A stretch of 64,000 bases of DNA from positions 1,814,068-1,878,067 of the forward strand of contig CAKZJV010000007.1 of NCBI GenBank assembly GCA_937120475.1, read 5' to 3'. A program made the translations under genes and the position numbers. Shown here piece by piece: positions 830 to 14,364 of this stretch (position 1 is its first letter; each line of letters starts with the position of its first letter). A model generated the notes under the pieces. It searched no databases. It was given only the letters and a program-made list of their open reading frames with translations, and was not told the origin of the DNA. Source of the stretch: an uncultured Cryomorphaceae bacterium. GTDB lineage: Bacteria > Bacteroidota > Bacteroidia > Flavobacteriales > Schleiferiaceae.

Positions 830-1348
830 ATGCACGGGCAATTTTCAAAAATACTATTCTGCGGTTTGATGCTTTTACCGTTTATCGCGTGTAAAAAAAA
901 CGCACAGTTCAGTGACAAACCTTTCCTGGAATACAAAGCCTACCGTTTTGTAAACAGTCAGGACACCACAACCAACCGCAGGAGCATTGAGTTCACTATT
1001 TATTTTACCGATGGCGATGGCGATCTGGGCTCTGATGATGAACCTAAAGACTCCTGCGACACGTCCATCAACAACTTTTTTATCCGGTATTTTGAAAAGG
1101 TAGGGACCAACTTTGTAGAGGTACAACCCCGGGATTCCTGCCTCCCCTTTGACAGTCGTATTCCGGATATCACCCCGGGAGGTTCCAACCCGGTTTTGGA
1201 GGGGGACATTATTACCTTTTTCGACTATAGTGGCTTTCCGGCCAATACTGATGTGGACTCTATCCGCTTTGAGTTTAAGGCCATCGACCGTGCCGGTAAC
1301 GAAAGCAACGTAAGCGTTACCCCTTCTATTCCTGCTCCTGGGCGTTAA
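830..1348 (+). CDS. Secreted lipoprotein of unknown function
   Basis: A 172-residue protein that begins with a signal peptide and a lipobox ending FIAC, so Cys21 is probably lipidated. The mature part is acidic, with a DGDGDLGSDDEP stretch that could bind calcium. It ends with a beta-rich segment (DSIRFEFKAIDRAGNESN) resembling an Ig or cadherin-like strand pair. I do not recognise a named family. The acidic aspartate/glycine loop and late Ig-like strands resemble part of the 484-residue lipoprotein at 42493-43947, but the similarity is weak. The 3' end overlaps the convergent Na/Pi symporter gene by 23 bases. Confidence 0.8.
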   Translation: MHGQFSKILFCGLMLLPFIACKKNAQFSDKPFLEYKAYRFVNSQDTTTNRRSIEFTIYFTDGDGDLGSDDEPKDSCDTSINNFFIRYFEKVGTNFVEVQPRDSCLPFDSRIPDITPGGSNPVLEGDIITFFDYSGFPANTDVDSIRFEFKAIDRAGNESNVSVTPSIPAPGR

Positions 1349-3059
1349 TACGCTCTTCGCGGCTGAGGAATACCTGGGAAATATGAGCTACGTGATCGGC
1401 AATACGTTCCATTTCTGAAATAAGATCACTATAGTACATACCACTCTCCAGGCGGAAGCGGCCTTTTTCGATTTTCTTAATGTACTCGGCCCTCAGTTCA
1501 CGATATAGAATATTGATCTTCTCTTCTATGCGCTCTGCTTCCTGAAAATTCATTTTACCTTCATTGGCCTCGAGGTTACTGACCATTGTGTCCATAGCTT
1601 TGGCTACGAGGTTAGACAGGCGAAGAATACGATCACGGATTTCCTGGGTGAAGTAGGCTTTCTTCTTTTTACGGATCATCAGGTTGCGACTGATTTCCAG
1701 GTAAATGTCACCAATACGTTCCAGGTAATTGGCTACACTGAGCATACTACGTACCCGCGTACTGGCTTCAGAGCTCAAATCTCCTGCTGATGCCTTGGTG
1801 AGGTAGGTAGCTATTTCAATTTCCATGCGATCTGAAATATTCTCGTAGTGCTCCAGTTTCTCTACGTACAGTTTAAATTTCTTTTCCTCCATCTCCGTAA
1901 CCAACAAAGGCACATAGCGGTAGGCACTGCGCATTATACGGGCAAACTTGGCCAATTCCTTCCGTGCTTCAACTATGGACAACTCCGGTGTGGACATAAG
2001 GCCACTACCTATATAATCCAGGCTAAACACTTCATCTTCACCTTTGCTGGGCACCATACGAATAACTATTCGGGCAATAATACCTACCAGGCCAACCATC
2101 AGCAATACGTTAATTATGTTGAACGAGGTATGAAACAAGGCCAGGGCCATAGGTATGCTGGTGGCGGACTCAAACGGGTTACCACCAAAAACCATTTCAG
2201 TGGCTGAAGCGGTCATTTTGAGGAAGAAGGGCAATAGCAAAAGCATCCACAACACCCCAAAAACATTAAAAATAAAGTGGGCTCGTGCCGCTCGTTTGGC
2301 ATGCACGTTAGCCACCAAAGCAGCCAGGTTAGCGGTAATAGTAGTGCCTATGTTTTCCCCTAAAACTATGGCCGCAGCCAGTGGAAAGGAAATCCAGCCC
2401 TCATTACACATGACCAGGGTAAGGGCCATTGCGGCACTGGATGATTGCACTACGATGGTTAAAATAGTGCCGATACCTACAAAAGCAAGGCTGATGAAAA
2501 ACTTACCCACCCAGCCCTTTTCATCGTAGGTAATGTTTCTTAAAAACTCCAGTACCTCAGGGTTACCCTTAAGATCGGGTACTGCATCCTTCATAAAGGC
2601 CAGGCCTAAAAAAAGCAGTGCAAAACCGATGAGTACTTCGCCCCATAGTTTCACCTTTTCCTTGCCCACAAACATCATGGGGAAGCCTACACCCACTATA
2701 GGCAGGCATAAAGCACTAATACTAAACTTACCCAGGCCTAAAACAGAAATCAACCAGGCGGTTACCGTAGTACCCACATTGGCCCCCATTATAACACCTA
2801 TGGACTCGACCAGGCTCAACAGACCTGCATTTACAAAGCTTACCACCATAACCGTGGTGGCCGATGAGGATTGTACCAGGGTGGTGATCAACAAACCCGT
2901 AAAGATCCCGAAAAAACGGTTGGAAGTCATGGCTCCCAATATTTCACGGAGCTTACTTCCCGCTACCTTTTGAATAGCTTCACTCATCACCTTCATACCA
3001 TAAATGAAGATACCGAGTGCACCAATGAGGGTCAGGAAATCGAAAATACCGAAGTTCAT
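1326..3059 (-). CDS. Na+/phosphate symporter with C-terminal PhoU-like domain (NptA/YjbB type)
   Basis: This 577-residue membrane protein should import phosphate, or in the YjbB subfamily possibly export it, coupled to sodium. The family hallmark, an inverted repeat carrying QSSSA, is seen twice: QSSSATTVMVVSF near residue 63 and QSSSAAMALTLVM near residue 207. Each is followed by a glycine-rich GANVGTT or GENIGTT loop. About eight hydrophobic segments fill residues 1-340. The last ~220 residues are a helical PhoU-like module (repeats around RSMLSVANYLERIGDIY and SEMERIADHVAHI), which in other bacteria signals phosphate status to PhoR. It is the last minus-strand gene of the locus and follows the large T9SS gene across a terminator-like hairpin. 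No TTAA-type operator is visible directly upstream. Confidence 0.92.
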   Translation of the reverse strand: MNFGIFDFLTLIGALGIFIYGMKVMSEAIQKVAGSKLREILGAMTSNRFFGIFTGLLITTLVQSSSATTVMVVSFVNAGLLSLVESIGVIMGANVGTTVTAWLISVLGLGKFSISALCLPIVGVGFPMMFVGKEKVKLWGEVLIGFALLFLGLAFMKDAVPDLKGNPEVLEFLRNITYDEKGWVGKFFISLAFVGIGTILTIVVQSSSAAMALTLVMCNEGWISFPLAAAIVLGENIGTTITANLAALVANVHAKRAARAHFIFNVFGVLWMLLLLPFFLKMTASATEMVFGGNPFESATSIPMALALFHTSFNIINVLLMVGLVGIIARIVIRMVPSKGEDEVFSLDYIGSGLMSTPELSIVEARKELAKFARIMRSAYRYVPLLVTEMEEKKFKLYVEKLEHYENISDRMEIEIATYLTKASAGDLSSEASTRVRSMLSVANYLERIGDIYLEISRNLMIRKKKKAYFTQEIRDRILRLSNLVAKAMDTMVSNLEANEGKMNFQEAERIEEKINILYRELRAEYIKKIEKGRFRLESGMYYSDLISEMERIADHVAHISQVFLSREERINAQEQE

Positions 3060-3176: not shown

Positions 3177-6100
3177 TTATTGAACAATCAGCTTGCGCGA
3201 AGCTCTTTGTCCGTTCATTTCGATGGAAACCAAATAAACGCCTTTCACCAGCTCATCGGTGTTCAATTCGATCAACACCTCGGAGGTATTGAAAGACTGA
3301 ACAGTTTTACCGGTAAGGGTAGTTATTACCACCGTTTTAATTTCACGGGTATCCGTTTCAATGAAAACCTTGTCGGTAGCCGGGTTTGGATAAAGTGTAA
3401 TGGTGTTGGCCATAAACTCGTCCAAACCAACCGGAGTCATATTTCCGGGGCTACCAATATCACCATTGGTAGAAGTATAAGCACCGTTGGTACCGCTTAC
3501 CGAAGAACCCAGCAAGGTACCCGTAGTATCATACTGAAGTGATACACCCAAGCTTACATCACCGGCTCCCCAGCTAACGCTGGATATTTTTTGACCTTTA
3601 TCATCGTAGAAATTTACTTCATCGGCCGACTCCTGAAGGCTTGAGAAACCGATAGGCCCTACCTCATCCTTGGCAATAACCACGAGGTTGTTAGGCAACT
3701 GCATCCAGATGTTGGACCAGTTGTCATCATCAGGGGTAACCTCATCCAGGAAGATGATGGACTCACCCGGTTGGATAACCAGGCTGGACTGAACCTTACG
3801 GGTTCCGGGTACATCATCGGCATCGTCCCAGCTAAAATCCAACAGATCGATGGGCACATTTCCAAAGTTGGTCAGCTCAAACCAGTCACCATCTAAACTA
3901 GGATGGGCACTGTTAGGCATAACCTCGGTAATAGCCAGTGAGGGTATTATTCGAATAATATCATCTCCACCACGTGGCAGTATCTGGTACCCGTCAGTAT
4001 AGGGGCTGGAAGCATCAAACTGCCCGCCAATACCGATCACGTCAAACTTACCTACCGGGGCACTTCCCCAGTTGGTAATGATATCCGAATCAAGGCGCAT
4101 AATAACCGTATCATTATTAGCCAGTACAATATCAAAGTTACCGAAGTTAGTGCTGGGCCATCCTGAGGTATCCACCATTTCAACACCGTTCAAACGGATT
4201 AAGCGACCTTCGGTGGGCTCACCCAATGAAGTTTCAACTGCGGGGGTAAGTGTATTACCGGAAGAGATCAACTTGATAGAATCAGGGATAATCTCGATGG
4301 TACCGTTAAACTGATCGATCACACCTACCGCGCGAATTTCATCACCTACCACCGGGCTGTAGGTAAAGCCGCTAATGTTAGACTTGAACACTTTTAAACC
4401 AGCATCATTGTTAGGAGAAGTGATGTAAAAGTCAAAACGGTTGAAACCAAGGTTAGAAATGGAAACGATACCCTCCAACTTGCAGTAAACGTTCAGAGAG
4501 TCAGCATCACCAGTGGCATTCACACCTACCACATCGATGATGTTGTACAGTGGAATATCATCCACAATGGTAAATACGTGGGTAGAGGTGATACCGGTAT
4601 TCAAACCAGCACTGGTTTTGGCAATGGTGAAAGTAATGTCTTCATCCACTTCGTTTAAGCCATCGGCAATCAGGTTTACATCAAAGCTCACGGAAGAAGA
4701 GTTTGCAGGAACCATCAAGGTGATGGTATCGTTAACCGCGGCAGGTGTAGTAGTATAATCGCCTGCTGTAACACCTACACCATTACTTACGTAAATCTTA
4801 ACCTGCTCCATGGCGGTAGTAGAAGGAGCAATCGGCATATTGATAGTCACTGTGCCAGCCGCTTCAACCTGGGATTGAGCAGCAGCTGGGAAGTTGATTG
4901 TAGGCGTAGTTACCACCACCGGGATAATGTCGTTCAAATCCCGCGGTAATATTTGATAGCCAGAAGTAAAAGGGTTAGAGCTATCGAACTGACCACCGGC
5001 ACCGATCACATCAAACGGACCCGTTGGCACAGGAGAGCCGTCAATGTCGGTATCACTATCAATACGCATTACCACGGTAACGCTACCGTTGCTGATGTTC
5101 ACATTCGCACTGTTGCCGTTTGCGGGCCACTGCGAAGGGGTTACCACACTGAAACCGTTCATGCGGATATATTCACTTTCAGTGGTTGCATCCACAGCAG
5201 GCACTACCGCTGGCATTTTCAAGGTGAGGTTGGAATCCAGTACTACTATAGAATCAACGATAAGTTCGGTTAACCCGTTAAAGAAACCTATTTCTCCCAC
5301 CACGCGGATGGAATCGCCACGCTCTACTACATAGTTGCTTACATCGCTACCGGAAAACACATTTATACCTCCGGTGGCATCGTATATGTAAAAACTAAAG
5401 CCATTATTACCGTCAAAGTCATCGGTGTAAACCACCCCGTTCAGCTTACAATACACATTCAGCGAATCGGGATTACCGTTGGCATCATCGGTGGTTACAT
5501 CCGCAATGTCATAAGTAGGAATACCAGGAGCAGGAGCATCGTTATCCTGAACTACAAAAGTGTAGCTGGTATTGTTACCCAATAAAAGGCCGGAAGTTAC
5601 CGAGGTGATATTCACGAAAAGGGTTTCGTTGTTTTCCACCAGGGCATCGTCAAAAACAGTAACGTCAAAACTTACACTGTCTTCATTAGCCGGAACGCTT
5701 AATGTGAAAATACCGGTAGTTGGATTGGGAGCCGGGTTAATACTTCCATCGGAAGGAATGCTTACTCCAACTCCGGGGATAGCCTGGAAGGTAATGGTTT
5801 CTGCAGTAGAAGCCGTGGGGTTGATTAATACATCAACCGTTACGGTACCTACTGCTTCGCCAACGGTGATTGAGCTTACCGCAAAGTTGACGGTTGGATT
5901 AGTGGGTGGTGCCAGTAGGATATCGCTCAGGCGACTTGGCAAAATCTGGTAACCTTCGTCAAAGGGAGAAGAACTGTCAAACTGACCACCGGCACCGATT
6001 ACATCGAAAGGCACGGTTGGAGCGGTGGTACCGTCAATATCGGTATCGCTGTCAATGCGCATTACGGTGGTATCAGTACCGTTGGTAATATCCACGCTTG

Positions 6101-7970
6101 CACTGTTACCGGCTGATGGCCATTGGCTGGCATTTACCAGGGAGTAACCATTAAGGCGGATATAATCACTTTCCACCGCTTCGTTGGGCACATTTACCAC
6201 CGTTGGCATTTTAAGGCTAACTCCTGTGGACCACAATACAATGGAATCCGCAAATATTTCGGTAAGCCCGTTAAACTGGGCAATATCACCAAAAACACTG
6301 ATGGAGTCACCCGGCTGCGGGTTGGAATAGGTGAGCACATCATTAAAGTTAAATACGTTGATGGCTCCGGTGTTGTCATAAATATAAAAGCTGTAACCGT
6401 TGTTACCATCAAAATCAATAGAGTGAACCGTACCTCTCAATTCACAAGTTACGTTCAATGAATCCGGCTCACCGTTAACATCGTTGGTAGTAACCTGGCC
6501 TATATTATAATAAGGAATGTTGGAGGTGAGTATGGCCTCAAAGTCCAAAAGGCTGCTAGGGAGTATCTGGTAGCCTTCATCATAGGGTGAAGAGCTATCA
6601 AACTGGCCACCGGCACCGGTAATGTTGAAAGGTGCGGTAGGTGCCGCAGAACCATCAATATCGGTATCGCTGTCAATGCGAAGCGTAGTAGTATCAGGCC
6701 CGTTGGTAATAGCCACACTGGCACTGTTGCCGGAAGCCGGCCATTGGCTGGCATTGATAACCCAATAGCCGTTTAACTTGATATAATCGCTTTCAGTAGA
6801 TTCATCGGGTACGCTTACCACAGTTGGCATTTTAAGGTTACTGCCACTGCTTAGTAATACGATGGAGTCCGGTACAATTTCAGTAAGACCGTTAAATTGA
6901 TCGATATCACCAATCACCCGGATGGAATCACCGACAGCCGGGTTGTTGTAATTGCTTACATCACTGAAGCTGAATACGTTTATACCACCGGTATTGTCGT
7001 AAATGTAAAAGCTGTAACCGTTATTACCGTCAAAATCGATAGAGTGAACAATACCGTGCAGGCGACACTCAACGTTCAGTGAGTCCGCCACCCCGTTCAT
7101 GTCGTTGCCTTTAATATCGGCAATATTGTAGTTAGGAATACCCCCGGCTCCAACCATAGGAGCTTCAACACGGAAGTTATCTACGGCCGCATAATCAGAG
7201 CCTCCATTTTGCCTGGCATAAATACGCAGACGTACGTGGGTTGCTGAGGAAGGAACCGGGATATCAATGGTTACCCAGCTCTGTGAGTTCTTGCTCAATT
7301 CAGTAAGAGGTCCCCAGGTAGCACCATTGTCGAATTCTACAACGTAAGCCAGGGAATCGCTGGTTTCATAGCCGATAGTATAATAATCGAATTTTACCCG
7401 GGCGTTGGGAAGTGCGCTCACATCCACCGCGGCAAAATCAAGGGTGTGCCCAAAAGGACCGCCTCCGTTCGGATTATCCAGGTCCTGCATACCCCAAAAG
7501 TTTGCTCCTTCGGATGGAACAATGGTAGATAACGAGGAAACCATACTCCATACATCACCGGAGGTATTATAGCTGGCCGGAGTATTTACGTAAGTCCACG
7601 AACCACTACCTTCAAAGCCCTGGTTCACCGGACCGGTTACCGGGGACAATGGGTTTACGGTAACACTTCCTGACATGCCAGGAGCATGGGGATCGCACTG
7701 GTAGCTGTAGTTACCTACAGTCCTGAATACATGCTGAAAGGTCCAACCGGTGCCCACTGAGTTCCCAAAAGATTCAGGGTTGGAGGGAAAAGTACTGGTG
7801 GTTCCGTTCACATTATGAGAACCGGACGTATTGGTCCAGATTACCGTATCGCCCTGAGCGATGGTTAAACTTGAGGGGTTGAAAAAGTTGCTTCCTACCG
7901 CAACATTATGCACAGTAGCAAATCCGGTAAAGCTTATGAGCAGTGCCAGAATGGATAATCTTACTTTCAT
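3177..7970 (-). CDS. Giant T9SS-secreted protein: cupredoxin, jelly-roll, four OB-fold (DUF5689-like) repeats, two Calx-beta, lamin-tail domain
   Basis: A 1597-residue secreted protein if translation starts at 7970. An in-frame ATG lies 18 codons upstream, but the 7970 start gives a clean signal peptide (MKVRLSILALLISFTGFA). Approximate domain order is: cupredoxin 20-107 with putative copper ligands His52, Cys92, His95 and Met99; a jelly-roll domain 111-275; OB-fold repeats near 276-478, 482-682, 816-1019 and 1139-1339, each ending GYQILP; Calx-beta domains near 687-814 and 1024-1137; a lamin-tail domain near 1342-1490; and a type A T9SS sorting domain from about 1519 (LYPNPATDKV). In known secreted nucleases such as ExeM, lamin-tail and OB-fold modules accompany an EEP nuclease domain, but no nuclease domain is visible here. 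A nucleic-acid-binding role is inferred. It has its own promoter with a candidate Pho operator. Confidence 0.88.
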   Translation of the reverse strand: MKVRLSILALLISFTGFATVHNVAVGSNFFNPSSLTIAQGDTVIWTNTSGSHNVNGTTSTFPSNPESFGNSVGTGWTFQHVFRTVGNYSYQCDPHAPGMSGSVTVNPLSPVTGPVNQGFEGSGSWTYVNTPASYNTSGDVWSMVSSLSTIVPSEGANFWGMQDLDNPNGGGPFGHTLDFAAVDVSALPNARVKFDYYTIGYETSDSLAYVVEFDNGATWGPLTELSKNSQSWVTIDIPVPSSATHVRLRIYARQNGGSDYAAVDNFRVEAPMVGAGGIPNYNIADIKGNDMNGVADSLNVECRLHGIVHSIDFDGNNGYSFYIYDNTGGINVFSFSDVSNYNNPAVGDSIRVIGDIDQFNGLTEIVPDSIVLLSSGSNLKMPTVVSVPDESTESDYIKLNGYWVINASQWPASGNSASVAITNGPDTTTLRIDSDTDIDGSAAPTAPFNITGAGGQFDSSSPYDEGYQILPSSLLDFEAILTSNIPYYNIGQVTTNDVNGEPDSLNVTCELRGTVHSIDFDGNNGYSFYIYDNTGAINVFNFNDVLTYSNPQPGDSISVFGDIAQFNGLTEIFADSIVLWSTGVSLKMPTVVNVPNEAVESDYIRLNGYSLVNASQWPSAGNSASVDITNGTDTTVMRIDSDTDIDGTTAPTVPFDVIGAGGQFDSSSPFDEGYQILPSRLSDILLAPPTNPTVNFAVSSITVGEAVGTVTVDVLINPTASTAETITFQAIPGVGVSIPSDGSINPAPNPTTGIFTLSVPANEDSVSFDVTVFDDALVENNETLFVNITSVTSGLLLGNNTSYTFVVQDNDAPAPGIPTYDIADVTTDDANGNPDSLNVYCKLNGVVYTDDFDGNNGFSFYIYDATGGINVFSGSDVSNYVVERGDSIRVVGEIGFFNGLTELIVDSIVVLDSNLTLKMPAVVPAVDATTESEYIRMNGFSVVTPSQWPANGNSANVNISNGSVTVVMRIDSDTDIDGSPVPTGPFDVIGAGGQFDSSNPFTSGYQILPRDLNDIIPVVVTTPTINFPAAAQSQVEAAGTVTINMPIAPSTTAMEQVKIYVSNGVGVTAGDYTTTPAAVNDTITLMVPANSSSVSFDVNLIADGLNEVDEDITFTIAKTSAGLNTGITSTHVFTIVDDIPLYNIIDVVGVNATGDADSLNVYCKLEGIVSISNLGFNRFDFYITSPNNDAGLKVFKSNISGFTYSPVVGDEIRAVGVIDQFNGTIEIIPDSIKLISSGNTLTPAVETSLGEPTEGRLIRLNGVEMVDTSGWPSTNFGNFDIVLANNDTVIMRLDSDIITNWGSAPVGKFDVIGIGGQFDASSPYTDGYQILPRGGDDIIRIIPSLAITEVMPNSAHPSLDGDWFELTNFGNVPIDLLDFSWDDADDVPGTRKVQSSLVIQPGESIIFLDEVTPDDDNWSNIWMQLPNNLVVIAKDEVGPIGFSSLQESADEVNFYDDKGQKISSVSWGAGDVSLGVSLQYDTTGTLLGSSVSGTNGAYTSTNGDIGSPGNMTPVGLDEFMANTITLYPNPATDKVFIETDTREIKTVVITTLTGKTVQSFNTSEVLIELNTDELVKGVYLVSIEMNGQRASRKLIVQ
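3948..4557 (-). repeat. OB-fold repeat unit 4 of the giant T9SS protein
   Basis: This is the most diverged copy. It begins IPLYNIIDVVGVNATG, keeps QFNGTIEIIPDSI and MRLDSD, and ends GYQILPRGGDDI. The EGIVSISNLGFNRFDFYI segment replaces the DFDGNNGYSFYIYD of the other copies. Boundaries are approximate. Confidence 0.75.
4914..5529 (-). repeat. OB-fold repeat unit 3 of the giant T9SS protein
   Basis: Begins IPTYDIADVTTDDANG and contains DDFDGNNGFSFYIYD, FFNGLTELIVDSI and MRIDSDTDIDG. It ends SGYQILPRDLNDI. It is flanked on both sides by Calx-beta domains. Boundaries are approximate. Confidence 0.8.
5916..6525 (-). repeat. OB-fold repeat unit 2 of the giant T9SS protein
   Basis: Begins IPYYNIGQVTTNDVNG and contains SIDFDGNNGYSFYIYD, QFNGLTEIFADSI and MRIDSDTDIDG. 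It ends GYQILPSRLSDI. It is very close to unit 1 at both protein and DNA level, which suggests a recent tandem duplication. Confidence 0.8.
6537..7146 (-). repeat. OB-fold repeat unit 1 of the giant T9SS protein
   Basis: Begins IPNYNIADIKGNDMNG and contains SIDFDGNNGYSFYIYD, QFNGLTEIVPDSI and LRIDSDTDIDG. It ends EGYQILPSSLLDF. It is adjacent to unit 2 with almost no linker. Confidence 0.8.
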
Positions 7971-7993
7971 TATTCGGTGTTTTAATAGAGGTG

Positions 7994-8001
7994 CAAAATT
8001 A
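7994..8001 (-). promoter_or_regulatory. -7 promoter box of the giant T9SS gene
   Basis: The minus strand reads TAATTTTG, an exact match to the Bacteroidota -7 consensus TAnnTTTG. It lies 23 bases upstream of the chosen start codon and 31 bases downstream of the candidate Pho box. No good -33 TTTG element is seen, as expected for an activator-dependent promoter. Confidence 0.6.
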
Positions 8002-8032
8002 TTAAAGAATAATTTTGGCGTCATGGTGGTAA

Positions 8033-8049
8033 GATTAAGCCAATGTTAA
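8033..8049 (-). promoter_or_regulatory. Candidate Pho-type operator upstream of the giant T9SS gene
   Basis: The minus strand reads TTAACA-TTGGC-TTAATC, two hexamers with an exact 11-base period. This is the geometry of PhoP/PhoB direct-repeat sites (for example TTAACA-like repeats for Bacillus PhoP). The same geometry occurs beside the phoB-like gene and upstream of the EEP cluster. Binding is inferred. Confidence 0.5.
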
Positions 8050-8090
8050 TACTTCAAAAACCCCAAAGCCAATCGTGCTTTAAGGTATTA

Positions 8091-8120
8091 AAAAAAGCCA
8101 CCCCAGGGGTGGCTTTTTTT
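8091..8120 (-). terminator. Rho-independent terminator after the TonB receptor gene
   Basis: A near-perfect hairpin with arms built on AAAAAAGCCACCCC and GGGGTGGCTTTTTT lies 22 bases beyond the stop of the TonB receptor. The poly-T tail is present on both strands, so it can work in either direction. Confidence 0.88.
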
Positions 8121-8141
8121 ACCTCTGTTCAGTAGGAGGAG

Positions 8142-11012
8142 TTACTTTAAGTCGTAAGAAAAACTCACGGATACGGTAGTTCCCGGGTTAAAAGATTGGA
8201 ATATCTGTTCAGAAGCCCGGTAAGATACCGCGATCATTTCACGGTAATCCCCTAAAAGGTTGTCCACACCAAAGCCCAGTTGGAATTTATCGTCTTCACC
8301 AAATTTCTTGTTCACATTGAGCTTAAGGCTATGAAAAGGTACGGTGTATATATTAGGGTTGAAGTTGATACCTACAATAGCCAGCTTGGGGCCCTGTACA
8401 TTGTAGAAAACCCCACCGTCCCATCCGTTCTCGATATCGGTATAGGAGATCCCGGCATTAACAATATAAGGGGCCTGGCCTTGCATATCGCGATAATCGC
8501 CTAAACTTTCACCCGCACGAAGTCCGTTGAGTTTAGCGTCATATTCCCCACCGGGGCTGCGATCATAACGCACCCGAGAATCAATCACGGAAATATTGGT
8601 GTTTAGTTGGAGATTGGAGAAGGCCTCACTAATGAAATCAAGGTTGATGCGAGCCTCTAACTCGGCCCCAATTACTTGTCCATCACCTACGTTTCGCGGT
8701 TGTATAGAACCCGGATCAGAGGCAAAGCTTACCAATTCGATGGGGTTGGAAAAGTATTTATAAAAACCACTCAAAGACACCGTTTGACCACGCTCCATAA
8801 AGACCTCATAACGCAAATCAAAATTCTGAATATCCGTTTCCTTAAGTGGATCCACTCCCAGGCCACCATCCAGGTTACCGATAAAGGTGGAGTTGGTGAG
8901 AGGATCATCAATCTGGGCAGCCGACTTTTCCTTAAAGGAAGGGCGGGCCGTGGTTAAAAAGTAGGAAGCACGGATATTGGTCTTTTCATTCATCTCAAAA
9001 ATCACACTGGCTGTGGGAAAAAAGTCAAGCAGGTCCAATACCTTTTCATTATCTAAAACTTCCCTTTGTTGGTTCGTTCCGGTATAGTACTGATCGTATT
9101 TCTCCATACGAACGCCAAGGATCGATTTCCAGCGGGGTGCAAAGCGGAACTCCTCCGAAAGGTAACCTGCAAGGTTGGTAATAACTCCCTCGTAAGTATT
9201 GTTGGGCTGGTAATTACCAAAGTAAAACATACCTGCTCTTTCAACCGGATCATATACAAAACCTTCGGTGAGCAACTCATCGGCATCACCCGTAAAAGGC
9301 AGTGTTCCCCTTTGAATGGATTCCATGTTATAATTAAAAATGTTGTAATCCCGGGTTTTATAGGTGTAGGCTCCCCCGAATTTGAATTTTGCACCTTCGC
9401 CCAACAAGCGGTGCTCCCAGGTAAAGTCCAGGCGGCTGGCCAGGTTAATTTCACTCAGGTTCCGCCAGATTCTTTGTGGTACACCAGCCTCACTGGGTTC
9501 GATGCGATAACTATTCTCTGAAGGTTCGTAACGGTAAGGGGTAATCCGTACGTCCTTGTCCTCAATACGAGAGTACGTAGGGGATACTTTCCACTCAATG
9601 TTAAAATCTCCACCATTCAAAATGTGCTCACCGGAAATCAAAGCGTTGGAGATGGAGCGCTCGCTATACTCCAGGTTATCCCTGAATATAAGTGCCGAAT
9701 TTTGGATATACTGACCGTTAAAGAAGTAACCCGATTTCTCTTCGGCATTTTGCAGATGCATCAGGTTAATCTTATACTTGGCATTTTCCGTTTTCATAGC
9801 ACCACCCAGCATACCGCTTACCAGTACGTTGCGTACACCTAAATCCCCCACAATCTCCTCATTTAACTGAAGCTCATACTGATCGGGGTTCTGACGGTTC
9901 TTCAACCAGTAGTTTTGCTGGTAATCCCGGTAAAAGTCGGTGGAGTTTTTGTAGGATATGGCCGCACTATAGCCATAAGTATTTACCTCCCCGGTAAATT
10001 GGTCACCTCCGGAGGCTCCCAATCCGAAGTTCATAAAACTGGTGGCCTGTTGAGCAGCCAGGTTTTTGTTGAATTTTAAAGTTTGTTCCCGGGCATTGCT
10101 GTTGGATGAAGCCGGGTTAATAATAGTTTGGGGGTTGGATGGGCTCATCCCCAATGGCTCGTCACGATAGGAGCCGTCAAAACCCAGCGCATCGGTAGGG
10201 CTACCTTCCTGGGTCAAAAACTCATCGTTGAAGTGCATACCTGGCGTATAGCCGAGGCTGGCCGAAACACCTAAGGTAGGCTCTTCGGGAAATTCCTTGG
10301 TTTCAATATTTACCAGTCCTCCTACAAAATCAGCCGGAAGATCGGCCGTAAAGGATTTAACTACGGTAATATTGCTGATAATGTTGGTTGGAAAAATATC
10401 CATTTGCAGGGAGTTCCGGTCTGGGTCCAAACCGGGAATATCAAGCCCGTTAAGGGTGGTTTTGGTATAACGATCACCCAAGCCCCTAACGTAAACATAC
10501 TTCCCTCCTTGTATGGAAACTCCGGGTACACGGGTAACAGCGGCTGCAGCATCACCATCACCAATTTTACGGAAGGTTTGTGCAGAAATACCGTCCAGTA
10601 CGTTTACGGATTTCTTTTTAACCGTAAGCAGTGCAGCCTCAGTATTACGGGTTTGCTCAACGGTAATGGTTACCTCACCTAACTGGCTGGTAGATGGTTC
10701 GAGTTTAACCGGGTCTATAGCGGTTACTTCCCCTGCCTTAACCGTAACGTCAGTAATAGTAACACTTTGATAACCAATGAAAGATATCACTAATTGGTAA
10801 GTGCCCGGATCGGCTTTCAGCTCGTATTTACCATCAAAGTCGGTGGTGGTACCTATGGTGGTGCCCTTAAGCACTGCGTTACCACTAAACAAGGGTTCTC
10901 CTACCTCATCGATCACCGTACCTCTTACCGTACCTTTTTGAGCTTTTGCAAAACCAGCCAACATTAGTGAAACGGCCAAAAAGATAATTTTCGTTACTCT
11001 CATCAAATTCAT
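8142..11012 (-). CDS. TonB-dependent outer-membrane receptor (Pho-linked cluster)
   Basis: An outer-membrane active transporter of about 955 residues. Met codons at 11012 and 11003 both precede the signal peptide (MRVTKIIFLAVSLMLAGFAKAQ), and a further in-frame ATG at 11036 falls inside the preceding hairpin. Residues ~30-115 form a carboxypeptidase-regulatory-like beta domain (GTVRGTVIDEVGEPL, DFDGKYELKADPGTY). A TonB plug follows (VRGLGDRYTKTTLNGLDIPG), then a 22-strand-type barrel ending in the aromatic-rich VSVSFSYDLK. No SusD homologue is adjacent. The partner is the beta-helix-like surface lipoprotein encoded immediately upstream. Substrate is unknown; the locus suggests phosphate or an organophosphate. 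A strong terminator-like hairpin sits only about 10 bases before the start. Confidence 0.93.
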   Translation of the reverse strand: MNLMRVTKIIFLAVSLMLAGFAKAQKGTVRGTVIDEVGEPLFSGNAVLKGTTIGTTTDFDGKYELKADPGTYQLVISFIGYQSVTITDVTVKAGEVTAIDPVKLEPSTSQLGEVTITVEQTRNTEAALLTVKKKSVNVLDGISAQTFRKIGDGDAAAAVTRVPGVSIQGGKYVYVRGLGDRYTKTTLNGLDIPGLDPDRNSLQMDIFPTNIISNITVVKSFTADLPADFVGGLVNIETKEFPEEPTLGVSASLGYTPGMHFNDEFLTQEGSPTDALGFDGSYRDEPLGMSPSNPQTIINPASSNSNAREQTLKFNKNLAAQQATSFMNFGLGASGGDQFTGEVNTYGYSAAISYKNSTDFYRDYQQNYWLKNRQNPDQYELQLNEEIVGDLGVRNVLVSGMLGGAMKTENAKYKINLMHLQNAEEKSGYFFNGQYIQNSALIFRDNLEYSERSISNALISGEHILNGGDFNIEWKVSPTYSRIEDKDVRITPYRYEPSENSYRIEPSEAGVPQRIWRNLSEINLASRLDFTWEHRLLGEGAKFKFGGAYTYKTRDYNIFNYNMESIQRGTLPFTGDADELLTEGFVYDPVERAGMFYFGNYQPNNTYEGVITNLAGYLSEEFRFAPRWKSILGVRMEKYDQYYTGTNQQREVLDNEKVLDLLDFFPTASVIFEMNEKTNIRASYFLTTARPSFKEKSAAQIDDPLTNSTFIGNLDGGLGVDPLKETDIQNFDLRYEVFMERGQTVSLSGFYKYFSNPIELVSFASDPGSIQPRNVGDGQVIGAELEARINLDFISEAFSNLQLNTNISVIDSRVRYDRSPGGEYDAKLNGLRAGESLGDYRDMQGQAPYIVNAGISYTDIENGWDGGVFYNVQGPKLAIVGINFNPNIYTVPFHSLKLNVNKKFGEDDKFQLGFGVDNLLGDYREMIAVSYRASEQIFQSFNPGTTVSVSFSYDLK

Positions 11013-11021
11013 TGGTTTAGT

Positions 11022-11057
11022 AAAAAAGCTCGTCAACCGGTGAGATTGACGAGCTTT
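11022..11057 (-). terminator. Terminator/attenuator hairpin directly before the TonB receptor start
   Basis: Perfect 12-base arms (11025-11036 and 11046-11057) enclose a 9-base loop. On the minus strand they are followed by six T's ending at 11022. It lies after the stop of the surface lipoprotein (11100) and ends just 10-19 bases before the receptor start codon, so the receptor is probably expressed by readthrough. Confidence 0.85.
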
Positions 11058-11099
11058 CTATGTTGAGTTTTATAACAAATTATTAGCTAAAGAGCTTTC

Positions 11100-12362
11100 T
11101 TAGAAAGCACCTTGAGCCTTTGCAGAAGTCCAGCTAAATGCAGTAACATCGGCACCGGCAGCACCTGGAGCAGTTACGTTAGAAGCAAAACCTAAACCTA
11201 AAAGAGCGAATACATCTACTCCGGCAAGCTTGTCAGAGAAGATATCGGAAACATCTACGTTACCGCTGGTAAGGTGGCTGGTGTTGAATTCCCAGTTGAT
11301 GAATTCCAGATCGCCATTAGCGTAGTTGTTAGATACACGAGGATCATCATTATCATCGCCAGCATCCAGTTCAACATCGCTGTTTTGAGAGAAGTTAGTC
11401 CAGTAAATGTTAGTGAAAGTACCTCTGGCTCCGTCACGGAAGTCAGCGTACTCACCACCACCTTCACCACCGTCATTCCAACCGATCATGGTACCGTTTT
11501 GCATGGTAAAACCACTTTCAAAGCTACCTTCAGCGCCATCGATTTCAAGACCGTGATCGCTGTCAGCGCTACCGATAAACATGAAGTTATCAATAGTTCC
11601 GCTGTACGCCTGGTCAACGTCAAAAGCATCGTCACCCTGACCCCAAACTAAAGCGTTGGTTACGTTTACCGTTCCACCGAACCACTCGATACCGTCATCC
11701 AGGTTAGAAACTACCTCAACGTTAGTGATAGTAGTAGCATTACCTACACCACCTAAAGTGATACCGTTGATTTCGTTACCTTCACCAATAAGGGTACCTC
11801 CGAAACGTACGGATACGTAGTTGATCACACCAGAGTTGTCATCGTCAATGGAACCACCGTAAAGACCACGAGTATCATCAGCAGGAATACCTTCAATTTG
11901 AACTTCGCTGTTATCAGCAGAGATGGTTGCTCTACCCAATACAATTAAACCTCCCCAAAGACCATTGAAAGTCTCATCAAGGTTCGGGCTTTCAGTTTCG
12001 CCTACAGCAATCTCATCCAATACAGAAGTAAAGATGATAGGCTGGCTAGCCGTACCATTTGCCATAATTTTACCACCACGGGCGATAATAAGTGCAGAAG
12101 CGTTAGCTTCACGACCACCTTCAGCTTTAATGATGGTTCCTGGCTCGATAGTTAAGGTAGCACCGCTTTCCACAACAACACGGCCAGAAAGCTGGTAAAT
12201 TTTATCAGCAGTCCAGGTTTCGTCAGAGGTAATACCTCCGGACTTCACAACATTACCGGAATTATTGTTGTTTCCGTTGTTGTTTCCGTCATCGTCACTA
12301 CATGAGGTCAATGCAAATACAGCCATCGCACTGTAAAGCATCATTGATTTGATTTTTTTCAT
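11100..12362 (-). CDS. Surface lipoprotein with beta-helix-like repeats, partner of the TonB receptor
   Basis: A 420-residue lipoprotein starting at 12362 (MKKIKSMMLYSAM), with lipobox LTSC and Cys about residue 21. The Cys is followed by SDDDGNNNGNN, an acidic patch of the kind that directs Bacteroidota lipoproteins to the cell surface. The body is rich in short repeated strands (ITNVEVVSNLDDGIEWFGG, VNYVSVRFGG, DHGLEIDGAEG) like a right-handed parallel beta-helix. Homologues are widespread next to TonB receptors and are often mislabelled as multidrug transporters; there is no transmembrane segment to support that. It probably binds the receptor's ligand outside the cell. It is transcribed divergently from the phoB-like gene, with a candidate Pho box about 45 bases upstream. 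Confidence 0.82.
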   Translation of the reverse strand: MKKIKSMMLYSAMAVFALTSCSDDDGNNNGNNNNSGNVVKSGGITSDETWTADKIYQLSGRVVVESGATLTIEPGTIIKAEGGREANASALIIARGGKIMANGTASQPIIFTSVLDEIAVGETESPNLDETFNGLWGGLIVLGRATISADNSEVQIEGIPADDTRGLYGGSIDDDNSGVINYVSVRFGGTLIGEGNEINGITLGGVGNATTITNVEVVSNLDDGIEWFGGTVNVTNALVWGQGDDAFDVDQAYSGTIDNFMFIGSADSDHGLEIDGAEGSFESGFTMQNGTMIGWNDGGEGGGEYADFRDGARGTFTNIYWTNFSQNSDVELDAGDDNDDPRVSNNYANGDLEFINWEFNTSHLTSGNVDVSDIFSDKLAGVDVFALLGLGFASNVTAPGAAGADVTAFSWTSAKAQGAF

Positions 12363-12408
12363 CGGAATATCTGTTTTTAAGATTTGCGGCAAAGGAACGC
12401 TGGTTATG

Positions 12409-12425
12409 TTAAGTCGGTATTAACT
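12409..12425 (-). promoter_or_regulatory. Candidate Pho-type operator upstream of the surface lipoprotein
   Basis: The minus strand reads TTAATA-CCGAC-TTAACA, with an 11-base period. The only nearby -7-like element is TTCCTTTG at 12390-12397, a one-mismatch match. Its distance from the operator is shorter than at the other sites, so the promoter assignment here is weak. Confidence 0.45.
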
Positions 12426-12502
12426 CAATTTGAATTTTACTTCACCCCTTATCCGCAGTGCTATTGGAGCGTAAAACAGAGTTTACAGAGTAATTGCATA
12501 AA

Positions 12503-12550
12503 TTAACACTGGATTAACAGTGGTAATACTGTATTAAAGATTTGTTAAGA
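12503..12550 (+). promoter_or_regulatory. Candidate multi-site Pho operator in the divergent phoB/lipoprotein region
   Basis: Two TTAA direct-repeat pairs are seen: TTAACA-N5-TTAACA (12503-12519) and TTAAAG-N5-TTAAGA (12534-12550), each with an exact 11-base period. A degenerate GTAATA half-site lies between them. The first pair has the same form as the TTAACA direct repeat described for Bacillus PhoP. The position, upstream of a phoB-like gene, suggests autoregulation. Confidence 0.55.
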
Positions 12551-12575
12551 CCTAAAGGCAGGGGCCTAATATAAT

Positions 12576-12583
12576 TACTTTTG
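12576..12583 (+). promoter_or_regulatory. -7 promoter box of the phoB-like gene
   Basis: TACTTTTG matches TAnnTTTG exactly. It lies 25 bases downstream of the nearest candidate operator pair and 23 bases upstream of the ATG at 12607. Confidence 0.55.
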
Positions 12584-12606
12584 ACCCGGAGATTTCTGAT
12601 AGACCT

Positions 12607-13290
12607 ATGAAAAACAGTGATTATAAAATACTGCTGGTTGACGATGAACCGGACATTATAGAGTTTGTAAGCTACAACCTCAAAAAGGAAGGTTTTGACG
12701 TTTTAACGGCAAATAACGGGGAAGATGGCCTGCAAATGGCTAAAAAAAGTCACCCTCATTTAATCCTCCTGGATGTAATGATGCCCGGCATGGACGGTAT
12801 TGAAACCTGTGACCAGATACGCAACACCCCGCACCTGGAAGATACCTTGATCGCCTTTTTAACGGCCCGTGGTGAGGATTATAGCCAGGTAGCCGGTTTT
12901 GATGCCGGAGCAGATGATTACATTACCAAACCCATTAAACCCAAAGTACTGATCAGCCGGATTAAGGCTTTACTAAGGCGCTACGGGCAAACTGAAAAGA
13001 AATCCAACATCCAGGAATTCGGGCGCATTGCGATAGACCTAGACAAATACCAGGTAAAGTATAAGGACAAAAAGCTGGACCTGCCCCGCAAGGAGTTTGA
13101 ACTGCTAACCCTGCTCACCTCCCGTCCCGGTAAGGTGTTTCACCGTGACGAAATACTGGACAAAATATGGGGTAACGAGGTAGTGGTAGGTGGACGCACC
13201 ATCGATGTTCACATCCGTAAGCTGCGCGAAAAGATTGGAGAAAAGTATATCAAGACGGTAAAAGGCGTTGGCTATAAGTTTGAGGTGTAG
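12607..13290 (+). CDS. phoB: PhoB/OmpR-family response regulator
   Basis: A 227-residue two-component regulator. The receiver domain (about 1-122) has the acidic pair Asp12-Asp13, the phospho-acceptor Asp56 in LILLDVMMPGMDG, the switch Thr86, and Lys108 in DDYITKPI. The C-terminal winged-helix DNA-binding domain (about 130-227) has the recognition-helix region VVGGRTIDVHIRKLREKIG and the closing KTVKGVGYKFEV. It lies 27 bases upstream of the histidine kinase gene, so the two form an operon. Orthologous pairs in Bacteroidota are usually called PhoB or PhoP, and the neighbouring Na/Pi-PhoU gene supports a phosphate role, but the stimulus is inferred. The divergent upstream region carries the TTAA direct repeats that this protein is the best candidate to bind. 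Confidence 0.88.
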   Translation: MKNSDYKILLVDDEPDIIEFVSYNLKKEGFDVLTANNGEDGLQMAKKSHPHLILLDVMMPGMDGIETCDQIRNTPHLEDTLIAFLTARGEDYSQVAGFDAGADDYITKPIKPKVLISRIKALLRRYGQTEKKSNIQEFGRIAIDLDKYQVKYKDKKLDLPRKEFELLTLLTSRPGKVFHRDEILDKIWGNEVVVGGRTIDVHIRKLREKIGEKYIKTVKGVGYKFEV

Positions 13291-13317: not shown

Positions 13318-14364
13318 ATGAGAATGGATAAACCAGGGTTTTTGGCTCTAGCGGTATCCCTGATCCTTGGCCTCATCATTTTTGCTTCGGGGGTTACCCT
13401 AACTTTCCTAACCCAGAATGAATGGCCATGGCAGGAGCTATTCCTATTTACCATCTGGTCGGCTTTTATAGCTTACTTTCTGGTGCGTTTTGCCGCCTAT
13501 CAATTTATTTACAGCAAAGTAAAGATCATCTATAAAAACATTCATGACCTTAAAGTAGGTAATGATACCGATGAGGACGAAGTGGTGCGCAGTACCGACC
13601 TGGATATGGTTACCCGTGAAGTTTCGGAATGGGCGGCCCAGCGCAGAAATGAGATCCAGGAATTAAAGGCCCGGGAGCAATTCCGCAGGGAGTTTATCGG
13701 TAATATTTCACACGAACTAAAAACGCCTGTTTTTAATATTCAGGGCTATTTATTAACGCTTCTGGACGGGGCTCTGGACGATCCTGACATTAACCGCAAA
13801 TACCTGAAGAGGGCCAGCAAGTCAGTAGATCGCATGATTAACATTATTGACGACCTGGAAACCATCAGTAACCTGGAAGCCAACCGCGTACACCTGGACT
13901 ACAGCAATTTTGACATTGTAAGCCTGGTGCAGGAAACCTTTGAGCTTTTAGAAGAAAATGCCAAAGACCGGCAAGTTACCCTGAAGCTTAAGAAAGACTA
14001 TGACAAGCCCTTAAAAGTGAGGGGCGATCGACAAAAGATCGAGCAGGTATTGATCAACCTCATTATTAACGCGATAAAATACGGGCGCAATAAAGGCAAA
14101 GTGGAAGTTCGCTTTTACGATATGCACAATAACATCCTCATCGAGATCTCTGACGATGGTATCGGAATTCCCCAGGAGGACATCCCCAGGATATTCGAAC
14201 GCTTTTACCGGGTGGATAAAAGTCGCTCCCGGGAGGCCGGTGGTACCGGCCTGGGCCTTTCCATAGTAAAACATATTATAGAGGCTCACAAACAGGCCAT
14301 AAATGTGCGCAGTAGTGAAAATGCCGGATCAACCTTTTCATTTACCCTTAAAAAGGTTAAATAA
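13318..14364 (+). CDS. phoR: Sensor histidine kinase, PhoR-like, without a periplasmic sensor domain
   Basis: A 348-residue kinase. Two transmembrane helices (about 8-30 and 41-62) are joined by only about ten residues, so there is no extracytoplasmic sensor. I also see no PAS domain before the dimerisation helix. The H-box is FIGNISHELKTPVF with phospho-acceptor His132. The N-box is QVLINLIINAIKYG, the G1 box ISDDGIGIPQEDIPRIFERFYR, and the G2 box GGTGLGLSIVKHI. A kinase of this shape probably takes its signal from a membrane or cytoplasmic partner, as PhoR does from PhoU. The PhoU-like tail of the Na/Pi symporter is a candidate partner. The 3' end overlaps the convergent glycosyltransferase gene by 27 bases. 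Confidence 0.87.
   Translation: MRMDKPGFLALAVSLILGLIIFASGVTLTFLTQNEWPWQELFLFTIWSAFIAYFLVRFAAYQFIYSKVKIIYKNIHDLKVGNDTDEDEVVRSTDLDMVTREVSEWAAQRRNEIQELKAREQFRREFIGNISHELKTPVFNIQGYLLTLLDGALDDPDINRKYLKRASKSVDRMINIIDDLETISNLEANRVHLDYSNFDIVSLVQETFELLEENAKDRQVTLKLKKDYDKPLKVRGDRQKIEQVLINLIINAIKYGRNKGKVEVRFYDMHNNILIEISDDGIGIPQEDIPRIFERFYRVDKSRSREAGGTGLGLSIVKHIIEAHKQAINVRSSENAGSTFSFTLKKVK

Follow-up and report, generated by a model that had tools for sequence, protein, structure and literature searches.

We analyzed a 64,000-nucleotide (nt) stretch of DNA (the window) from an uncultured Cryomorphaceae bacterium (GenBank assembly GCA_937120475.1, contig CAKZJV010000007.1, positions 1,814,068 to 1,878,067), in which repeated TTAA boxes are found at the locus of a phoB-like regulator gene. 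As judged from sequence, these boxes are very likely PhoB operators (Pho boxes) at the promoters of phosphate-scavenging genes, and in this genome they are located at the promoters of phoB, of the lipoprotein and TonB-dependent receptor genes, and of phoX. The predicted element consists of two to three tandem TTAA(C/G) half-sites at 11-base-pair (bp) steps, the final TTAA being 15 bp ahead of the TTTG in a Bacteroidota-type -7 box. A Pho-type operator had been proposed in an earlier note on this DNA, and conservation of the boxes in the phoB gap supports that proposal. We read the boxes as Pho-type because of their fixed distances to the -7 box, their recurrence at phoX, and the low-phosphate induction reported for homologues in Flavobacterium johnsoniae (PMC8115612).

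All four TTAA-N7-TTAA pairs claimed for the window are present, at 8035-8049, 12409-12423, 12503-12517, and 12534-12548. The coordinates given earlier held for three of them; the first pair had been started at 8033 by counting two flanking bases, and its first TTAA is at 8035. Three pairs lie within the 244-nt gap between phoB and the divergent lipoprotein gene (12363-12606), and the fourth precedes a large gene for a protein exported by the type IX secretion system (T9SS). The phoB-proximal box, TTAAAGATTTGTTAAGA (12534-12550, minus strand), reads TTAACA-N5-TTTAA on the minus strand and is placed 31 nt ahead of the TTTG of the phoB -7 box TACTTTTG (12576-12583, plus strand), which fits the Bacteroidota -7 consensus, TAnnTTTG. 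The second gap box, TTAACA-CTGGA-TTAACA (12503-12519, plus strand), starts 31 bp upstream of the phoB-proximal box. The lipoprotein-side box (12407-12423, minus strand) reads TTAATA-N5-TTAACA on the minus strand, and its last TTAA is 15 nt ahead of a TTTG at 12390-12393 (minus strand; CAAA on the plus strand). We take this TTTG as part of the lipoprotein -7 box; GCAAAG is conserved at this place in the alignment of related gaps.

The three copies in the gap are not due to chance, as dinucleotide shuffling of the 244 nt gave a mean of 0.048 copies and reached three or more in 2 of 20,000 shuffles. The rough chance estimate in the earlier note, 0.02 per 200 bases, was of the right order. Over the whole window the count of TTAA-N7-TTAA is unremarkable (6 matches versus 4.10 expected), and a 259-kb genome sample held 8 TTAA pairs at period 11 (other periods, 5-19).

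We then compared phoB gaps from relatives. The lipoprotein had matches in 75 of the 88 genomes of the window's family, from which 50 loci were taken (30 from the first match set and 20 fetched later); 6 were dropped as the fetched stretch lacked phoB, and 44 contained it. Left out of the lipoprotein loci were G047, G023, G024, second tandem copies, and weaker matches, and in five sequences of genus g16 the phoB start did not coincide with an ATG. The 44 gaps contained 59 TTAA pairs at period 11, in 31 sequences spread over ten genera, versus 0-17 pairs at each of the other periods from 5 to 30. A set of 61 named phoB loci, retrieved by a search with the window PhoB and treated as Bacteroidota (one, L164, is labelled Actinomyces), had 39 period-11 pairs in 31 upstream regions, versus 4-16 pairs at other periods. 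Nineteen loci from other phyla had no TTAA pair at any period, a weakly informative result given only 22 TTAA in total. In an alignment of 21 gaps, the TTAA half-sites were conserved and the linker was variable. Among the 59 gap boxes, the base after the second TTAA was G or C in 47 and A in 4. A second period-11 pair 31 bp upstream of the phoB-proximal one was also found in G003, G004, G002, G022, G025, G026, and G016. Conservation of the 11-bp period settles the question of whether the observation is real.

The distance from box to promoter is conserved as well. CAAA-N13-TGTWA, which covers the lipoprotein -7 TTTG and the nearest half-site, occurred in 34 of the 44 family gaps (7 genera) and in 11 of the 61 named loci. 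With a second half-site required 11 bp further on (first base relaxed), the counts were 21 of 44 and 11 of 61, and the other combinations tested gave 0-4. In a genus-weighted consensus of these 34 family sequences from 7 genera, two half-sites stand out clearly and a third, in register with them, is weaker. In 14 of the 44 gaps, from 6 genera, the phoB-proximal box was present as TTAA-N7-TTAA at 30-31 nt ahead of TTTG. The 33-base promoter match of one family member, G023, is also present in L154, a metagenome-assembled genome labelled Schleiferiaceae, which suggests that the window's family is Schleiferiaceae.

Outside the locus, the same geometry recurs at phoX, with degenerate half-sites. 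The genome's own PhoX, encoded elsewhere in the genome, belongs to PF05787 and carries a T9SS sorting tail. We found 24 PF05787 loci and examined 21, of which seven presumed orthologues (613-647 amino acids, from seven genomes) were used for the 15-bp geometry and six others had frames open to the stretch edge. In this set, with relaxed forms picked after the sequences had been seen, (C/T)TAA was placed exactly 15 nt ahead of TTTG in 6 of 7 and of TTT(G/A) in 7 of 7; other spacings from 8 to 25 gave at most 1 and 2, respectively. A TTAA 22 bp further upstream was found in all seven. Four PF05787 loci from other Flavobacteriia had a single period-11 pair upstream, four loci had none, and neither F. 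panici nor F. potami had a PF05787 match. Lipoprotein paralogues from other Flavobacteriia gave a further recurrence: of 20 upstream regions, four, grouped by eye as look-alikes and from four Flavobacterium-group genomes, have TTAAC-N14-TTTG with further half-sites in the 11-bp register, versus 0-1 of 20 at other spacings.

A composite of these features, CAAA-N(12-14)-TGTTAAG-N6-TTA, gave 26 matches in 20 of the 88 family genomes versus 16 for the reversed pattern. By coordinates, 13 of the 26 were lipoprotein promoters, 2 were phoX promoters, and 11 were elsewhere; the N13 spacing was present in all 15 assigned matches and in 2 of the 11 others. The 3.65-Mb genome of the window contains two matches, at the lipoprotein and phoX promoters, and G003 likewise has two, at the same genes. 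Bare TTAA-N7-TTAA and TTAAY-N6-TTAAY were rejected as genome-wide markers, being at the same level as controls. The earlier note had set a genome-wide scan as its test, and a motif no more common at Pho genes than in random intergenic DNA as its refutation; the result came near to that, and an 11-bp spacing of TTAA is by itself not diagnostic. The diagnostic feature is the combination of tandem TTAA(C/G) half-sites with the 15-bp distance to TTTG. Use of the composite to recover a Flavobacterium-wide regulon was abandoned, as the genome scans gave the phoB locus only.

The box ahead of the T9SS gene (8035-8049, minus strand) reads TTAACA-TTGGC-TTAATC on the minus strand and is 37 nt from the TTTG of the -7 box TAATTTTG (7994-8001, minus strand). 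Eight genomes, the window's own (G000) and seven others, have a T9SS homologue behind the TonB gene. The box is conserved in four of the eight, at 37 nt from TTTG in G000, G003, and G022 and at 36 nt in G028, and in G002 the second half-site is degenerate. Our confidence in the Pho-operator reading was slightly lowered because this box is conserved in only these four.

Several results weigh against reading the boxes as PhoB operators. The PhoB-like protein is under the NCBIfam PhoB cut-offs (223.5 versus 296.2 bits and 220.4 versus 270 bits). No period-11 TTAA pair precedes the T9SS gene in G013, G016, or G018, where the gene starts differently, and no box was found before the glycosyltransferase or Na/Pi symporter gene in the stretches examined. 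The glycosyltransferase homologue in F. johnsoniae is nevertheless induced at low phosphate (PMC8115612). At phoX, strict TTAA-N15-TTTG is present in just 3 of 7 (0 or 1 at other spacings), and the middle half-site is TTAA in just 2 of 7, otherwise degenerate or absent; among the lipoprotein paralogues, 16 of the 20 upstream regions lack TTAAC-N14-TTTG.

The scans add to these points. The tighter TTAAY-N6-TTAAY is not enriched in the 3.65-Mb genome (61 versus 55 for the reversed pattern). The composite was designed after the lipoprotein and own phoX promoters had been seen, so those matches are not independent, and the 11 of 26 matches elsewhere are about the level that the control predicts. 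A one-mismatch composite scan of the window's own genome gave 12 matches versus 12 reversed, and a relaxed composite in F. panici and F. potami gave 11 versus 28 reversed, and of these 11 only the copies at the phoB locus were convincing. A search for a TTAA pair plus a -7 box at 8-14 bases was also rejected, with 7 matches versus 19 reversed in F. panici and 47 versus 43 in ten family genomes, where the lipoprotein promoter was among the matches in 6 genomes. An identical 33-base string with a TTAA pair and TTTG was observed in five genomes (G000, at C7:2156310-2156342, G003, G013, G016, and G018); this string is probably constrained for another reason.

Three other explanations of the boxes were weighed. 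The boxes might be bound mainly by a paralogous RprY-like regulator, or by both regulators, since GTTAAA-N5-GTTAAA, the element presumed for the RprY-like protein, has the same TTAA core and 11-bp period. Three Trans_reg_C matches in the genome exceed the cut-off, and for one of these the RprY model fits best. The GTTAAA element is present before the kinase next to this RprY-like regulator and in the dapF-degP and moxR-phoX intervals; in addition, all seven presumed phoX orthologues have a period-11 TTAA pair at a similar distance upstream. Two further copies precede genes for a PDZ/T9SS protein and an S8 peptidase, making five among the own-genome loci examined: at degP (C7:1020384, L013), moxR (C7:2535343, L251), the kinase (C9:259376, L279), the S8 peptidase (C7:995411, L012), and the PDZ/T9SS protein (C7:375798, L009). 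These loci had been preselected by the TTAA pattern and represent a lead, not a regulon count. The preference for G or C over A after the second TTAA in the phoB-gap boxes is unlike GTTAAA, and GTTAAA-N5-GTTAAA, our working definition of the RprY operator, is absent from the genome's own phoB-gap locus (L031). Furthermore, the five stretches around the GTTAAA elements contain no TTAA-N15-TTTG except one at phoX itself, and the F. johnsoniae homologues respond to phosphate (PMC8115612). We therefore consider binding mainly or jointly by the RprY-like regulator unlikely. The GTTAAA repeats may mark an envelope-protease regulon of that regulator and, because they share the TTAA core, TTAA-N7-TTAA alone is unsafe as a PhoB marker.

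The conserved bases could also be a sigma-factor core promoter rather than an operator, with the TTAA near the -7 box forming an extended -33 region, which the lipoprotein and phoX boxes do overlap. A -33 element cannot account for second and third half-sites at 11-bp steps, nor for the distance between box and -7 box at phoB (31 nt) and at the T9SS gene (37 nt), and the exact composite has just two matches in the genome; a core promoter by itself is thus a highly improbable explanation. Chance in AT-rich intergenic DNA would fit the absence of enrichment in both window and genome. It is already contradicted by the conservation of the boxes, since related sequences give sharp peaks of period and distance, with pairs at period 11 in 31 gaps across ten genera, and it would require a number of copies in the gap that shuffling reached only twice in 20,000 trials. 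We regard chance as having next to no likelihood.

The predicted PhoB operators are set in a gene cluster, in the order Na/Pi symporter-PhoU, T9SS-exported protein, TonB-dependent receptor, and lipoprotein (all on the minus strand), phoB and phoR (plus strand), and glycosyltransferase (minus strand). The phoB-like gene (12607-13290, plus strand) encodes a response regulator of 227 amino acids with a receiver domain (Response_reg) and an OmpR-type C-terminal DNA-binding domain (Trans_reg_C), both Pfam models matching over the cut-off. We named it PhoB-like because the PhoB models score best and because of its gene neighborhood. The phoR-like gene (13318-14364, plus strand) encodes a histidine kinase of 348 amino acids. 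The surface lipoprotein gene (11100-12362, minus strand, with a putative start at 12362) is divergent from phoB, in relatives too; the protein had no Pfam or NCBIfam match at an E value of 0.001 and no credible match among PDB sequences. In genus g18, six members with small genomes (L039-L044) carry the lipoprotein match twice within a single open frame of 780-815 amino acids.

The TonB-dependent receptor gene (8142-11036, minus strand) has a provisional start codon. The large T9SS-exported protein (3177-7970, minus strand) has plastocyanin-like, OB-fold, DUF5689, and LTD domains and a sorting tail, based on a domain search run on 3177-8024. Its open reading frame had been listed from 8024, but the true start is probably the ATG at 7970, given the position of the -7 box (7994-8001) and the signal-peptide-like stretch that follows this ATG. 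The Na/Pi symporter (1326-3059, minus strand) has C-terminal PhoU domains, which are the sole PF01895 matches in the genome, so that PhoU is found only in a fusion that shares its cluster with phoBR.

The boxes here resemble the Pho boxes bound by PhoB in Escherichia coli and by PhoP in Bacillus subtilis: half-sites follow each other in tandem every 11 bp, adjacent to genes for phosphate scavenging. The PhoP consensus of B. subtilis, TTAACA, equals the window half-site TTAACA, whereas E. coli uses TGTCA where we find TTAA(C/G). Both systems differ from this one in that here the boxes are at a fixed 15-bp distance from the Bacteroidota -7 TTTG and no pst operon was found in the genome. The 11-bp step of the known Pho box has been described as seven conserved bases plus four that are less conserved (PMC4415409). 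Within the same phylum, Bacteroides fragilis has a PhoB and, unlike the window's genome, pst; its PhoB was reported to bind a 512-bp pstC promoter fragment in a gel shift (PMC3547664). The main text of that paper contains neither "motif" nor "consensus" and apparently gives no binding sequence (PMC3547664).

The closest parallel is the F. johnsoniae PhoBR locus, PUSIV, in which a glycosyltransferase, PhoR, PhoB, a TonB-dependent transporter, and the lipoprotein FII are grouped together (PMC8115612). Judged by family, by neighborhood, and by related Flavobacterium loci, and without use of F. johnsoniae sequence, the window genes are probably homologous to PUSIV. Named Flavobacteriia phoB neighborhoods have the TonB and lipoprotein genes on one side and the kinase and glycosyltransferase genes on the other; in the Flavobacterium loci the TonB gene adjoins phoB, whereas here the lipoprotein gene does. 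At low phosphate, every PUSIV member but PhoR was reported as clearly upregulated, with the fold-change column of Table 1 listing PhoB at 3.06, the TonB transporter at 8.02, lipoprotein FII at 9.91, and the glycosyltransferase at 5.42, versus PhoR at 0.76 (adjusted p 0.056) (PMC8115612). The words "motif" and "promoter" are absent from the main text of that paper (PMC8115612), and we found no description of a Bacteroidota Pho operator in the literature searched. The definition of the Bacteroidota element and of its promoter distance is new here.

PhoB binding, the direction of regulation, and the promoter class are predictions, and together they suggest the following model. At low phosphate, the PhoR-like kinase would phosphorylate the PhoB-like regulator, which would then bind, in head-to-tail arrangement, to TTAA(C/G) half-sites recurring in 11-bp steps. 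In the promoters of the lipoprotein/TonB genes and of phoX, the last half-site would occupy the -33 position, with its TTAA 15 bp from the -7 TTTG, so that PhoB would replace the -33 contact and bring in RNA polymerase. Where the box is further upstream, as for phoB (31 bp) and the T9SS gene (37 bp), the regulator may act in autoregulation and in a differently placed activation. The targets would be outer-membrane scavenging genes, namely those for the TonB receptor, the lipoprotein, and T9SS-exported proteins including PhoX.

This Pho system apparently operates without pst. The window's own genome has no match to PF12849 (PstS-type) and has PhoU only as the fusion to the Na/Pi symporter, so the enrichment at pst expected in the earlier note has no target in it. 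Across the 88 family genomes, PF12849 matches at an E value of 0.001 were found in 26, with 4 over the cut-off and none in the window's genome. We tentatively suggest, as a possibility short of a probability, a Pst-less Pho switch in this family. It would lack PstSCAB and free PhoU, and the Na/Pi symporter-PhoU fusion would be the likely signal to PhoR. PhoB would build an outer-membrane and T9SS scavenging set at promoters of one fixed layout, in which two or three TTAA half-sites of 11 bp end 15 bp from the -7 TTTG, while a sister regulator would control envelope proteases through the TTAA core in another flanking context.

The result points to a Pho system that lacks pst and is centered on a Na/Pi symporter and on capture at the outer membrane. 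The phosphate switch of Bacteroidota is poorly described, and the refined element names the exact bases for mutation. With the half-site, the period, and the promoter distance defined, prediction of the Pho regulon would become possible for Bacteroidota of marine and soil habitats, which are important in phosphorus recycling.

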